Positions 43,465 to 54,996 of a stretch of DNA of 64,000 nt are shown in pieces. The notes beneath the pieces were generated by a model, which had not been told where the DNA came from, did no database searches, and saw only the letters and a list, made by a program, of their open reading frames with translations. A program made the position numbers and the translations under genes. Source of the stretch: Flavihumibacter profundi (GTDB taxonomy: Bacteria > Bacteroidota > Bacteroidia > Chitinophagales > Chitinophagaceae). The stretch's first letter is position 1. Every line of letters starts with the position of its first letter. The stretch spans positions 620,001-684,000 of the forward strand of contig NZ_JAIQXE010000002.1 of assembly GCF_020076305.1 (NCBI RefSeq), given 5' to 3'.

Positions 43465-43620
43465 GGTGGGGGGGAATGGTGAATGGTGAATAGTGAATGG
43501 GGAATGGTGAATGGGGAATGGGGAATGGGGAATGGTGAATAGTGAATTGGAAGAAAGCCGAGACCCGATTCCCTATCCCCTTCCGCCCATTCACTATTCA
43601 CTATTCACCATTCACTATAT
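43465..43620. repeat. heptamer repeat array forming a long inverted repeat
   Basis: About eleven units of (G/A)(G/T)GGAAT or (G/A)GTGAAT occur at 43471-43547. After a 40-bp spacer, about four complementary ATTCAC(C/T) units occur at 43589-43617. Transcripts of either strand could fold into a long hairpin. The array occupies the whole intergenic gap between umuD and umuC. Similar arrays are at 52865-52951 and, diverged, 2795-2849. Confidence 0.85.
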
Positions 43621-51284: not shown

Positions 51285-51382
51285 GCTGTCAGGTATTTTA
51301 ATGAATATAAGAAAATCTGTACAAATCAATATTTCCAGCAGGGCTGTTAACCCATGTTAAAAAGGGTTGCCCGGGGAAATCT

Positions 51383-51390
51383 TATCTTTG
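51383..51390 (+). promoter_or_regulatory. -7 promoter element of the kinase/RapZ-C fusion gene
   Basis: TATCTTTG matches TAnnTTTG exactly and ends 11 nt before the ATG at 51402, giving a leader of only a few bases. It also shows that the in-frame ATG at 51354 is upstream of the promoter. Confidence 0.6.
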
Positions 51391-51401
51391 GCCGCGAATA
51401 T

Positions 51402-52868
51402 ATGGAACAAATAATATCAGCTATTAAAGCCTTATGGCAGGAGTGGGCCGGAACTGAAGCAAAAGAAGTTACGATACTGCCCCAAAGCGGCAGCGACCGC
51501 ATTTATTACCGGGTAACCGGACCGGATAACAAAACCGTTATCGCCACTTATAATGAGCACCTTAAGGAAAACCAGACTTTCATTTCATTTTCAAAGGCAC
51601 TGCAATCGAAAGGATGCCCGGTGTGTAATGTATTAAAGGTAAACGTTGCAGGGAATATTTACCTGCAGGAAGATTTCGGCGACGTTTCCCTGCTCAACCT
51701 GCTGGAAAAGCATGGCTATACAGACTATATCTACGGACTGTTCCAGCAGAGCCTCCGGGAGCTGGCACACCTTCAAATTATAGGGGGAAGCGCCATAAAC
51801 TATGATGATTGCCTTACCACCCATGAATTTGGCAAGCAGGCCATCATGAGCGACCTACTGTATTTTAAGTACTATTTCCTCGATACGCTTAAGTACCCTT
51901 ATGACAAGCAGGCCCTGCTGAATGATTTTGAGGCCCTGAGTACTTACCTCACCCATACCGGGAACAAGCATTTTATGTTCCGTGATTTCCAGAGCCGGAA
52001 TATCATGGTGAAAGATGACAAGGTTCATTTTATCGATTACCAGGGCGGCATGCGGGGCGCCCTGCAATATGATGTGGCTTCCCTGCTTTGGCAGGCCCGC
52101 GCTGAATTGCCCGATGACTGGAAGAATTCGCTGTTGACTTATTATATTGACGAGGCCGGCAAATATTTGTCCCATCCCCTGGATGCTGCTTTATTTACTG
52201 CGCAGTATAATGGTTATGTGCTGATCAGGTTGTTGCAGGTTTTGGGTGCTTATGGATTCAGGGGCTTCTTCCAGCGGAAGGCACAGTTCCTGACCAGTAT
52301 TCCCCTTGCCCTCCGTAACCTGAAATGGTTCACCGATAACCGGAGAATGGGCATTTCGGTGCCTGAATTTGACCGCTGCCTGGAATTCTGTACCAGTGCG
52401 GAAATAATGGCTCGTTTTGAGCCGCTTAAGGCCGATGAGAACACCCCGCTGGTGGTGCAGATCCATAGTTTTTCTTTCCGGAAAGGGATCCCTGCCGACA
52501 GTTCCGGAAATGGCGGTGGCTTTGTGTTTGATTGCCGTGGCATCCTGAACCCGGGTAGGATCGAGGAATTTAAAACCCAGACCGGAAGAGATAAAGCTGT
52601 TAAGGATTTCCTGGAGCAGCGGACCAACATGCCCGATTTCCTGAACAGCGTTTTTGATATGGTGGATATCAGCGTAACCGATTATATCAAACGCGGATTC
52701 GGCAGCCTGCAGGTGAATTTTGGCTGCACCGGCGGACAACACCGCAGTGTTTACGCTGCCGATGCCCTTGCCCGGCACCTAAGGAATAAATTTGGTGTTC
52801 GCATAGAACTGAAGCATATTGAGCAGGAAGCTAAGAATTGGATTAACCTGACTTATAAAGTAGAGTGA
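51402..52868 (+). CDS. amino-sugar (AmgK-like) kinase fused to a RapZ C-terminal domain
   Basis: The N-terminal part of this 488-residue protein (about residues 1-335) is an aminoglycoside-phosphotransferase-fold kinase with the catalytic loop FRDFQSRNIM at about 192-201 and the metal-binding FIDYQGG at about 209-215, as in AmgK, which phosphorylates MurNAc and GlcNAc at C1. The C-terminal part (about 349-487) is a RapZ C-terminal domain: SFSFRKGIPADSSG, VFDCRGILNPGRI, and GCTGGQHRSVYAADALARHL. In E. coli that domain binds glucosamine-6-phosphate. The RapZ P-loop domain is absent. The next gene is a MurU-like nucleotidyltransferase, which supports a cell-wall sugar salvage role. The stop lies in the first unit of a heptamer array. 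Confidence 0.85.
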   Translation: MEQIISAIKALWQEWAGTEAKEVTILPQSGSDRIYYRVTGPDNKTVIATYNEHLKENQTFISFSKALQSKGCPVCNVLKVNVAGNIYLQEDFGDVSLLNLLEKHGYTDYIYGLFQQSLRELAHLQIIGGSAINYDDCLTTHEFGKQAIMSDLLYFKYYFLDTLKYPYDKQALLNDFEALSTYLTHTGNKHFMFRDFQSRNIMVKDDKVHFIDYQGGMRGALQYDVASLLWQARAELPDDWKNSLLTYYIDEAGKYLSHPLDAALFTAQYNGYVLIRLLQVLGAYGFRGFFQRKAQFLTSIPLALRNLKWFTDNRRMGISVPEFDRCLEFCTSAEIMARFEPLKADENTPLVVQIHSFSFRKGIPADSSGNGGGFVFDCRGILNPGRIEEFKTQTGRDKAVKDFLEQRTNMPDFLNSVFDMVDISVTDYIKRGFGSLQVNFGCTGGQHRSVYAADALARHLRNKFGVRIELKHIEQEAKNWINLTYKVE

Positions 52869-52951
52869 ATGGTGAATGGTGAATAGTGAATAGGAAGACC
52901 GGCCTCCCATTCACCATTCACCATTCACTATTCACTATTCACCATTCACTA
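52865..52951. repeat. heptamer repeat array forming an inverted repeat
   Basis: Four GTGAAT(G/A)G-type units at 52865-52894 face about six complementary ATTCAC(C/T)-type units at 52908-52950 around a GC-rich loop. The array starts inside the stop codon of the kinase fusion gene and ends three bases before the start of the nucleotidyltransferase gene. Confidence 0.85.
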
Positions 52952-52953
52952 CT

Positions 52954-53670
52954 ATGAAAGCAATGATCTTCGCAGCCGGGCTCGGAACCCGGTTCAAACC
53001 CTGGACAGACGAGCATCCCAAGGCACTGGCCCTGGTGAATGGCAAACCGCTGTTGCAGCGGAATATTGAATATTTACAACGCTTTGGCATAACCGAAGTG
53101 GTGGTGAATGTGCACCATTTTGCCAACCAGGTTATTGCTGCCATAGAAAAAAATAAGGGCTGGGGCAGTAAGGTTACCATCAGCGATGAAACAGGCGAAG
53201 TGCTGGAAACAGGGGGCGGATTATTAAAGGCAAGGCCGCTGCTGGAAGGCAATGAACCCTTTGTAACCATCAATGCCGATATCCTCACCGACCTGGATTT
53301 GAATAAACTGCTGGCCTTCCATAAAGCACAGCAATCCTTAATCAGTTTTGGCATCACCAACCGCAAGACCTCCCGCTATTTTTTATTTGATGAAACAAAC
53401 CGGCTCTGCGGCTGGACGAATACCCGGACGGGCGAACAGCGTATAGCCATCGAAAAACCCGGCCTGCATCCCATGGCCTATAGTTGTGTGGTGGTATTTG
53501 AGCCGGCCGTGTTCCCGCTCATCAGGCAAAGGGGAAAATTCTCCCTGGTAGATACCTACCTCGATCTTGCTCCCGACCACCGCATTATGGGGTTCGACCA
53601 TACCGGCGACCGCCTGGTGGATGTGGGCAAACCCGAAAGCGTTGTTGAGGCAGAAGCAATGTTTGCCTGA
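52954..53670 (+). CDS. sugar-1-phosphate nucleotidyltransferase, MurU-like
   Basis: A 238-residue nucleotidyltransferase: MIFAAGLGTRFKPWTDEHPKA with the G-x-G-T-R-x-x-P-type signature, EVVVNVHHFANQV, TGGGLLKA, and INADILTDLDL with the metal-binding Asp. Pairing with an AmgK-like kinase fits conversion of MurNAc-1-phosphate to UDP-MurNAc, bypassing de novo synthesis. Other hexose-1-phosphates cannot be excluded. The heptamer array just upstream probably contributes to the leader of the bicistronic mRNA. Confidence 0.88.
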   Translation: MKAMIFAAGLGTRFKPWTDEHPKALALVNGKPLLQRNIEYLQRFGITEVVVNVHHFANQVIAAIEKNKGWGSKVTISDETGEVLETGGGLLKARPLLEGNEPFVTINADILTDLDLNKLLAFHKAQQSLISFGITNRKTSRYFLFDETNRLCGWTNTRTGEQRIAIEKPGLHPMAYSCVVVFEPAVFPLIRQRGKFSLVDTYLDLAPDHRIMGFDHTGDRLVDVGKPESVVEAEAMFA

Positions 53671-53679
53671 GTATATTTT

Positions 53680-54861
53680 TTACACCTTCACATACCACTT
53701 CTTCCTGTCCATATACCAGGCGACGGACCAGAAAATTATTATGATGATTATGGCGTACAGCAGTGAGCCGTTTTCAGGTTTATCACTCACCGGTTTGCAG
53801 AGATTTTCATAGAACCAGCCCAGGGGACCAGTGTATTTTGGCTGGCCCTGTTCATCAAGGCCATTGGCTATCCTGATCAATGCCAGGGTTTTTGGAACCA
53901 ATGCGCTTAATACGAAAATGAACAGCGGGTTCTTCCCGAAGACATCAAAAAAGCGGCTCCAGTAGCCTTTCCAGCCATGGAATTCAATGAGCTGGATAAA
54001 GGTGGCAAGGGCCATGGTTGCCAGTCCGCTTGTATACAATACATAAGAGCTGGTCCAGATTTTTTTATTGATCGGGAAGACCATGCCCCAGGCCATGCCG
54101 GTTATCCACAACACGATGCCAGCCACGAAAAGATTGGCAACCATACCGGTATTCTTGCCTTTCTGCCGGATATAATCCCCCACCAAAAACCCGAAAATGA
54201 CCTGCGCTATGGCAGGAATAGTACTGGCAATGCCTTCCGGGTCGAAAGGAACTCCCTCGCCCTTGTACAGATGGTCAGTACCCAGCAGGGCGCGGTCGAG
54301 ATGCGTCCCCCAGAAACCCTCCAGGCTAAAGGGATCAAGGGAACCATCAGGGGCCGGATAGCCCGATAAACCTGTAACAATCCAATAGCCCAGTAAAATC
54401 AGCGCCGCGGCGTAAAAAGCGCCCCTCACTTTAAAAAAATAAATCAGCAGGGCGGCGAATGTATAAGCCAGGGCAATGCGTTGCAGCACGCCGAAAATGC
54501 GCAGGGTGGAAAACGGCTTGCCCACGAGCAGGTCGCCATCCCATTTGATAAAAGGGTACCAGTTCAGCAGGAGCCCGATACCGAAGATCAGTACACCGCG
54601 CTTAAGGATTTTCGTTAGGGCAGCTGCATGGCCCATCTGCTCCATTTTGGGTAGTACAAAAGCCAGTGCATTACCAACCGCAAAAAGGAAAAAAGGGAAA
54701 ACGAGGTCGGTAGGTGTGCAGCCTTCCCAGGCGGCGTGTTTCAACGGACTGTAGATATAACTCCAGCTGCCCGGGTTGTTGACGAGGATCATCAGGCAAA
54801 CGGTGGCGCCGCGGAATACATCGAGGGCATAGAAGCGATGGGAAGGGGCAGTTGCAGGCAA
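53680..54861 (-). CDS. DUF5009/heparan-N-acetyltransferase-like membrane protein
   Basis: A polytopic protein with about ten membrane segments and the opening HRFYALDVFRGATVCLMILVNNPGSW, then GCTPTDLVFPFFLFAVGNALAF, typical of the DUF5009/HGSNAT-like family (N-acetyl transfer to amino sugars, also called NagX in some bacteria). The frame extends to an ATG at 54996, but that start would abut the divergent receptor gene and its leader. The TTG at 54861, seven codons before the conserved start, gives the usual length (393 residues). Position next to kinase and MurU-like genes supports an amino-sugar role. Confidence 0.8.
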   Translation of the reverse strand: MPATAPSHRFYALDVFRGATVCLMILVNNPGSWSYIYSPLKHAAWEGCTPTDLVFPFFLFAVGNALAFVLPKMEQMGHAAALTKILKRGVLIFGIGLLLNWYPFIKWDGDLLVGKPFSTLRIFGVLQRIALAYTFAALLIYFFKVRGAFYAAALILLGYWIVTGLSGYPAPDGSLDPFSLEGFWGTHLDRALLGTDHLYKGEGVPFDPEGIASTIPAIAQVIFGFLVGDYIRQKGKNTGMVANLFVAGIVLWITGMAWGMVFPINKKIWTSSYVLYTSGLATMALATFIQLIEFHGWKGYWSRFFDVFGKNPLFIFVLSALVPKTLALIRIANGLDEQGQPKYTGPLGWFYENLCKPVSDKPENGSLLYAIIIIIIFWSVAWYMDRKKWYVKV

Positions 54862-54996
54862 GGGGCAGTATTTTACTTTGAAAATAAGCTTTTTACCGAA
54901 AGCATATATTCCGCATTTCGATAACTGTTTTCCCGATTCTGTAAGCCGGTTTTGTCCTACGACCGCAATTTTGCACCCAATATTATAGGAAGGCAT

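Follow-up and report, generated by a model that had tools for sequence, protein, structure and literature searches.

In E. coli RapZ, the C-terminal domain (CTD) is reported to bind GlcN6P with a KD of 10 nM (PMC7073468). The sulphate/malonate pocket of this domain is lined by H190, T248, G249, H252, and R253, with C247 close by and not contacting the ligand (PMC5737377, PMC9841335). His190 is described as required for RapZ activity, and Islam et al. report that C247S and C247A both abolish activity, that the -SH may be catalytic, and that crystallising the RapZ CTD with GlcN6P revealed what is probably a transformed product (PMC9841335). Khan and Goerke likened the pocket to a PTP loop that might hydrolyse GlcN6P (PMC7199280), and phosphatase activity has been reported for the B. 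subtilis homologue YvcJ (PMC7525490). The basic C-terminal tail of E. coli RapZ binds RNA (PMC7525490) and is described as confined, together with GlmY/GlmZ, to Enterobacteriaceae (PMC7073468). A second set of described systems concerns muramic-acid salvage, where AnmK is given as the source of MurNAc-6P, and MurQ or the MupP/AmgK/MurU route as the means of its removal (PMC13046382, PMC13041923). In Pseudomonas, the HAD-family phosphatase MupP converts MurNAc-6P to MurNAc in the step before AmgK (PMC5371407, PMC13046382), and the MupP/AmgK/MurU route is reported to confer intrinsic fosfomycin resistance (PMC5371407). Tannerella forsythia has the kinase MurK (PMC7670621), and a characterised AmgK from the same species was employed in PMC13041923.

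Within the window, that is, the whole stretch of 64,000 nucleotides of Flavihumibacter profundi DNA analysed here, a single chain of 488 amino acids (51402-52868, + strand) joins an AmgK-like kinase of the APH fold to a RapZ-type CTD, and a MurU-like gene follows on the same strand. The features are as follows:

51402..52421, + strand: AmgK-like anomeric sugar kinase domain, aa 1-340 (Pfam APH, APH fold; R-D-F-Q-S-R-N with D195 and N200, and I-D-Y-Q with D212, conserved)
52452..52823, + strand: RapZ C-terminal domain (PF22740, PapZ_C), aa 351-474 (Pfam, a genome-wide match at the same place, and the predicted CTD structure)
52503..52520, + strand: fusion-type loop S-G-N-G-G-G before FDCR, aa 368-373 (alignments A2 and A5)
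52725..52748, + strand: Cys-X5-Arg-Ser loop C442-T-G-G-Q-H-R448-S449, candidate phosphate-binding/nucleophile loop (alignments, motif counts, and model)
52864..52950, no strand assigned: inverted repeat of GTGAATR heptamers in the gap between fusion and murU, a possible attenuator or a simple/dispersed intergenic repeat
52954..53670, + strand: MurU-like MurNAc-1-phosphate uridylyltransferase, the next gene (NCBIfam NF045761, Pfam NTP_transferase)

The open reading frame of the fusion spans 51354..52868 (+ strand, 504 aa), and we set the start of the 488-residue protein at the ATG at 51402 because the related proteins of alignment A1 start there or close by. Pfam APH matched aa 26-249 (2.1e-08, 34.7 bits against a cut-off of 23.2) and PF22740 matched aa 351-474 (5.1e-33, 114.3 bits against a cut-off of 27), which, with the single conserved frame, bore out the claim of an earlier, sequence-only reading that an AmgK-type kinase is fused here to the RapZ CTD. 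The NCBIfam AmgK model scored 54.9 bits (7.1e-15), far below its cut-off of 550, and a second AmgK model reached 28.3 against 500. D195, N200, and D212, which we take to be the catalytic Asp and Asn residues of an APH-fold kinase, were invariant in alignments A1 (20 sequences) and A3 (42 sequences). AlphaFold2, run on a 42-sequence alignment, modeled the full protein with a mean pLDDT of 90.2 and a pTM of 0.74; the best Foldseek match of this model was 3csv, an APH-family structure, and the 50 matches listed were kinase-type entries, so the CTD was also modeled and searched by itself.

The same reading had placed the CTD here without its P-loop partner, and our scans agreed. The NCBIfam RapZ model covered the window protein only with its positions 153-275 of 278 (5.3e-29, 101.6 bits, under the cut-off of 244), and the Pfam and NCBIfam scans reported no P-loop family in the protein, where APH stands in place of the N-terminal Walker domain. 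The two scans likewise gave no match to a HAD family in the protein. The window genome, given as 100% complete, contained one PF22740 match, the fusion itself, so it has no separate canonical RapZ. A canonical RapZ broken by a frameshift was considered and ruled out by the single PF22740 match in the window genome and by the conservation of the fusion frame in relatives.

The neighboring gene is MurU-like, as had also been claimed from the sequence: NF045761 is its best-scoring family (1.6e-39, 136.1 bits) despite lying under the cut-off of 250, and NTP_transferase matched at 3.6e-16. An AmgK-type kinase carrying the CTD and standing beside a MurU-like gene points to a role in MurNAc salvage. 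The gap of about 85 bases between the two genes is occupied by a long GTGAATR hairpin (arms 52864-52895 and 52905-52936, 91% complementary; RNA fold of -49.5 kcal/mol, z -9.95). A comparable heptad array with inverted copies lies at window positions 43472-43615. Convergent with murU, the window encodes at 53680-54996 (- strand) a membrane protein resembling NagX/HGSNAT (glucosamine N-acetyltransferase; NCBIfam 1.1e-47, below cut-off).

A survey of Bacteroidota for the fusion and its linkage to murU, which the sequence-only reading had proposed, was carried out on a phylum sample of 296 genomes (window genome included) and found PF22740 in 36 of them. Twenty-seven of these carried one-frame kinase-CTD fusions, seven encoded the kinase, the CTD, and MurU in three neighboring genes, and two had CTD genes without a kinase within the 16 kb taken; murU adjoined 21 of the fusions and all 7 split forms, 28 of the 36 in total. 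The two stand-alone CTD genes (L056:7938-8348 and L059:7786-8208, both on the - strand) belong to genomes G180 and G271, which are AnmK-positive and MurQ-negative and have the kinase elsewhere in the genome.

Beyond the phylum sample, we examined the best 80 of 585 confirmed relatives, where the 585 may include canonical RapZ. Among the matches listed, relatives came from Bacteroidota, Ignavibacteria, Calditrichia, Acidobacteriaceae, Elusimicrobia, and Delongbacteria. Seventy-nine of these best 80 were one-frame fusions, and one (L141) was split into three genes. The fusion is therefore no frame artefact, given that kinase and CTD share one frame in 27 of 36 PF22740-positive phylum-sample genomes and in 79 of the best 80 of 585 relatives. 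Its kinase motif R-D-x-Q-x-[RK]-N was matched by the initial pattern in 77 of the best 80, and inspection showed it in the remaining 3. The murU gene lay directly downstream in 54 of the best 80 (45 by the rule of the script, 7 with a further-overlapping stop-to-stop frame, plus L141 and L132); among the remaining 26, several stopped at contig ends, and in two a MurU-like gene was encoded on the other strand. In one case (L132:6962-9280, + strand, Bacteroidaceae MAG RGIG7470), kinase, RapZ CTD, and MurU formed one frame of 773 residues. The order of kinase, CTD, and murU was thus kept whether they occurred as a fusion plus a gene, as three genes, or as one frame. Upon clustering the open reading frames within 5 kb of 115 loci, only the MurU-type cluster was widespread (77 loci, by single linkage, such that other nucleotidyltransferases may be inside), while the next clusters reached 8 loci. 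Within the flanks taken, some of them short, neither AnmK nor NamZ was found near the CTD at any of the 115 loci (L031-L145).

A tree of the kinase domain (123 rows, built by a quick method without bootstrap, with a warning of long branches) placed the window kinase with the Chitinophagaceae fusions and had the split form arise at three separate points amid the fusions, an arrangement forced by well-supported branches. As judged from this tree, the fused or split state changed at least three times with the gene order constant. An older fusion that later split looks the likelier course, the direction of change being unproven under the midpoint root.

The pocket of the CTD was conserved in a pattern of its own. 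Four residues of the CX5RS loop (Cys, His, Arg, and Ser) were invariant in alignments A1, A3, and A5, and CX5R[ST] occurred in 36 of 36 phylum-sample CTDs (window included) and in all of the best 80 of 585 relatives, which sums to 116 of 116 for two sets that overlap, as at least two relatives match a sampled protein exactly over the kinase domain. The equivalent of RapZ His190 is Gly in the window protein and an invariant Gly (NPG) across the same three alignments, and the equivalent of RapZ K170 is Arg in the window protein. Compared with E. coli RapZ, whose row in alignment A2 is assumed to be correct, the fusion-type loop has five inserted residues (GNGGG); the GGG was invariant in 42 of 42 sequences of A5. 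With the CTGGxHRS pocket loop kept while H190 is replaced by Gly, the ligand of the CTD is likely phosphorylated, and it need not be GlcN6P. In the full-length model, the CX5RS loop is placed between strand 435-442 and helix 448-464. The CTD alone was predicted by AlphaFold2 with a pLDDT of 90.8 and a pTM of 0.87. This model matched the E. coli RapZ-CTD structure 5o5s with a Z of 19.4 (rmsd 1.6 Å over 123 residues, 34% identity). Its matches to PTPs, 3s4o (Z 6.1; 101 residues, 3.7 Å) and 7ncy (Z 5.2; 84 residues, 3.2 Å), were at background level: the other matches listed, PFKs and PTPs alike, ranged from Z 5.1 to 6.6, with PFK at about 6 and designed P-loop folds at a similar level.

The distribution of the CTD was compared with those of AnmK and MurQ in a pooled set of 510 genomes from three overlapping and phylogenetically uneven samples, with no row dropped: the phylum sample (296), a sample of family f16 (57, of which 16 shared with the phylum sample), and a sample of the window's class (207, of which 34 shared). 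A sample of the order, PF22740-positive in 5 of 5 genomes, was too small to use. MurQ was scored as present at a best E below 1e-40 to TIGR00274, which held for 211 of 296 and 191 of 207 genomes (203 and 165 passed the curated cut-off); in the phylum sample, a gap separated the weakest match accepted (3.0e-51) from the strongest one rejected (5.5e-12). In the pooled set, the CTD was present in 21 of 24 AnmK+MurQ- genomes versus 16 of 365 AnmK+MurQ+ genomes (Fisher 8e-22, relatedness ignored), counts that include weak AnmK calls in G216 (1.2e-10), G347 (4.5e-10), and G430 (5.2e-17) and one CTD call on a partial match (G464). The 21 genomes represent 10 families, and the three exceptions, G495 (98% complete), G501, and G502 (both 96%), represent three other families. 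Taken by sample, the corresponding counts were 12 of 12 versus 14 of 195 in the phylum, 2 of 2 versus 1 of 19 in family f16, and 9 of 12 versus 4 of 187 in the class.

There was no overall enrichment of AnmK with the CTD in the phylum sample (26 of 36 CTD-positive versus 181 of 260 CTD-negative genomes), and a simple co-occurrence of AnmK and CTD was dropped on these numbers; only the AnmK+MurQ- pattern held. AnmK was absent from 28 of the 65 CTD-positive genomes of the pooled set, including 17 of 20 in family f16, a count that speaks against the simple model, and 7 of the 8 AnmK-negative genomes of the class sample carried the CTD. Five of the 28 have MurQ, and another source of MurNAc-6P probably exists in those five, since MurQ is present there without AnmK. 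CTD, AnmK, and MurQ occurred together in 16 genomes, among them that of the window, where recycling via the fusion would be one of two routes because all three coexist.

Kinases of the same family but lacking the CTD were found in 64 of the 296 phylum-sample genomes and in two families, with 63 in f17 (weak matches, 70-144 bits) plus G009, and AnmK was present in 0 of these 64 genomes. At all six f17 loci examined (L149-L153 and L155; Pfam on two loci, phmmer on all six), the kinase was followed by murU, NamZ, and an SSF transporter (sodium:solute symporter) in an apparent operon, and the genomes have neither AnmK nor MurQ. NamZ, an exo-muramidase, likely supplies free MurNAc in these operons, which would make them a salvage unit that works without the CTD. 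The CTD is missing in the one family in which a free-MurNAc supply was seen; this is one lineage, not many.

We propose, at close to an even chance, that the window protein is a bifunctional muramic-acid salvage enzyme, with the CTD as a MurNAc-6P phosphatase and an anomeric kinase feeding MurU. The RapZ-type CTD would hydrolyse MurNAc-6-phosphate to MurNAc, with Cys442 of the CX5RS loop as the nucleophile and Arg448 as the phosphate binder, and would thereby take the job that MupP has in Pseudomonas. The N-terminal AmgK-like domain would phosphorylate MurNAc at the anomeric position to MurNAc-1-phosphate, which the adjoining MurU would turn into UDP-MurNAc; in net terms, one chain would shift the phosphate from C6 to C1. 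We infer both catalytic activities, the identity of the substrate, and the order of the steps.

Several lines of evidence favor this phosphatase assignment. CX5R[ST] occurs in every CTD of both sequence sets, and its Cys is invariant even though in RapZ it lies near, and not among, the ligand contacts; the published likeness of RapZ to a PTP loop, the C247 mutants, and the phosphatase activity of YvcJ point the same way. A phosphatase fused to, or encoded between, AmgK and MurU matches the MupP step. The CTD tracks AnmK+MurQ- genomes, and the CTD-less kinases stand in genomes of which none has AnmK, with NamZ at the f17 loci. Other observations weaken it. The 28 CTD-positive genomes without AnmK would need another source of MurNAc-6P, G495, G501, and G502 lack the CTD despite being AnmK+MurQ-, 16 AnmK-positive genomes have both CTD and MurQ, and in structure the CTD resembles PTPs no more closely than background matches do. 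Moreover, as the kinase accompanied the CTD in 36 of 36 PF22740-positive phylum-sample genomes, the pattern could reflect the kinase instead, and a HAD phosphatase could do the hydrolysis. A wider proposal is more tentative: RapZ-type CTDs may form a family of cysteine-dependent hexosamine-6-phosphate phosphatases that includes, as part of the MurNAc kinase chain, the missing MurNAc-6P phosphatase of anabolic cell-wall recycling in Bacteroidota and neighboring phyla, and E. coli RapZ may be a derivative recruited for RNA control.

The sequence-only reading had instead suggested a kinase under allosteric control by an amino-sugar phosphate. This idea, in which the CTD would switch the kinase on or off by binding GlcN6P, GlcNAc-6P, or MurNAc-6P without turnover, survives best among the alternatives, and we rate it as rather unlikely. 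It draws on the 10 nM KD of the E. coli domain for GlcN6P (PMC7073468), on the fusion of the CTD to a kinase, and on the retention of the CTD in the 28 AnmK-less genomes, where a sensor of a common metabolite still makes sense. The replacement of His190 by Gly alongside an invariant Cys argues against it, and it does not predict the strong link to AnmK+MurQ- genomes. GlcN6P is, furthermore, a general cell-wall precursor, yet the kinases of the f17 free-MurNAc operons have no CTD. That the CTD senses GlcN6P in particular is doubtful, given the loss of His190, the invariant CX5RS loop, and a distribution that fits MurNAc-6P catalysis better than a general GlcN6P sensor.

The CTD might also be a phosphatase or binder for another hexosamine phosphate (GlcNAc-6P or GlcN6P), with the kinase feeding GlcNAc-1P to UDP-GlcNAc and MurNAc-6P not the main ligand. 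NCBIfam names AmgK enzymes MurNAc/GlcNAc kinases, and this assignment would account for the CTD-positive genomes without AnmK; it becomes improbable in view of the conserved neighbor, which is MurU-like, and of the MurQ/AnmK pattern, which points to MurNAc-6P. That the CTD is a structural or dimerisation remnant of an old fusion without a ligand role would suit a fused state that appears old and clustered on the kinase tree, but we regard it as very improbable, with pocket residues that are invariant and a CTD that, at three points of that tree, has its own gene next to that of the kinase. The earlier suggestion of an RNA regulator, here a moonlighting adaptor like E. coli RapZ, has in its favor that RapZ contacts RNA through a domain of the family to which the CTD belongs, and is weakened to near-negligible probability by the missing P-loop half, which precludes a RapZ tetramer of the known kind, by the absence of His190, and by a fusion end that lacks the basic RNA-binding tail (A2 inspected against the consensus quoted in PMC7525490), a tail described as Enterobacteriaceae-restricted with GlmY/GlmZ (PMC7073468).

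If the MurNAc-6P phosphatase assignment is true, it names the enzyme that removes MurNAc-6P in AnmK+MurQ- bacteria (24 of 510 genomes, 13 families), places the CTD in the route that gives Pseudomonas its reported intrinsic fosfomycin resistance (PMC5371407), and makes it testable whether the RapZ CTD is an enzyme, as two papers suggest. With the CTD linked by fusion to a single pathway, its substrate can be guessed and assayed. Two Parabacteroides loci carry the fusion (L106 and L129) and belong to Tannerellaceae, the family of Tannerella forsythia; if the AmgK of T. forsythia is also a fusion, kinase activity of the type would already have been shown. A literature search, with subscription journals mostly outside it, listed no publication on a kinase-RapZ CTD fusion. 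The parts are known families; their joining, the spread, the split forms, and the MurQ pattern are what this analysis adds.

Compared with the described systems, the window fusion shares the PF22740 CTD and the CX5RS loop with RapZ of E. coli and YvcJ of B. subtilis, and differs from them in the APH kinase that replaces the P-loop domain, the Gly in place of His190, the GNGGG insertion, and the lack of the basic tail. With the CX5R(S/T) cysteine phosphatases (PTP/DSP), the CTD has in common the signature loop between a strand and a helix, a likeness already in print for RapZ, while its overall fold matches them only at background Z. Like AmgK of Pseudomonas, it has an APH-type kinase beside a murU-like gene, but the kinase scores far below the equivalog cut-offs and carries the CTD. 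The closest parallel in proposed function is the MupP-AmgK-MurU route of Pseudomonas and Caulobacter, for which the same three steps are proposed here, MurQ being absent in part of the CTD carriers; MupP is a HAD phosphatase, whereas in the fusion a RapZ-type domain joined to the kinase would carry out its step, the likeness to MupP lying in the proposed function only.
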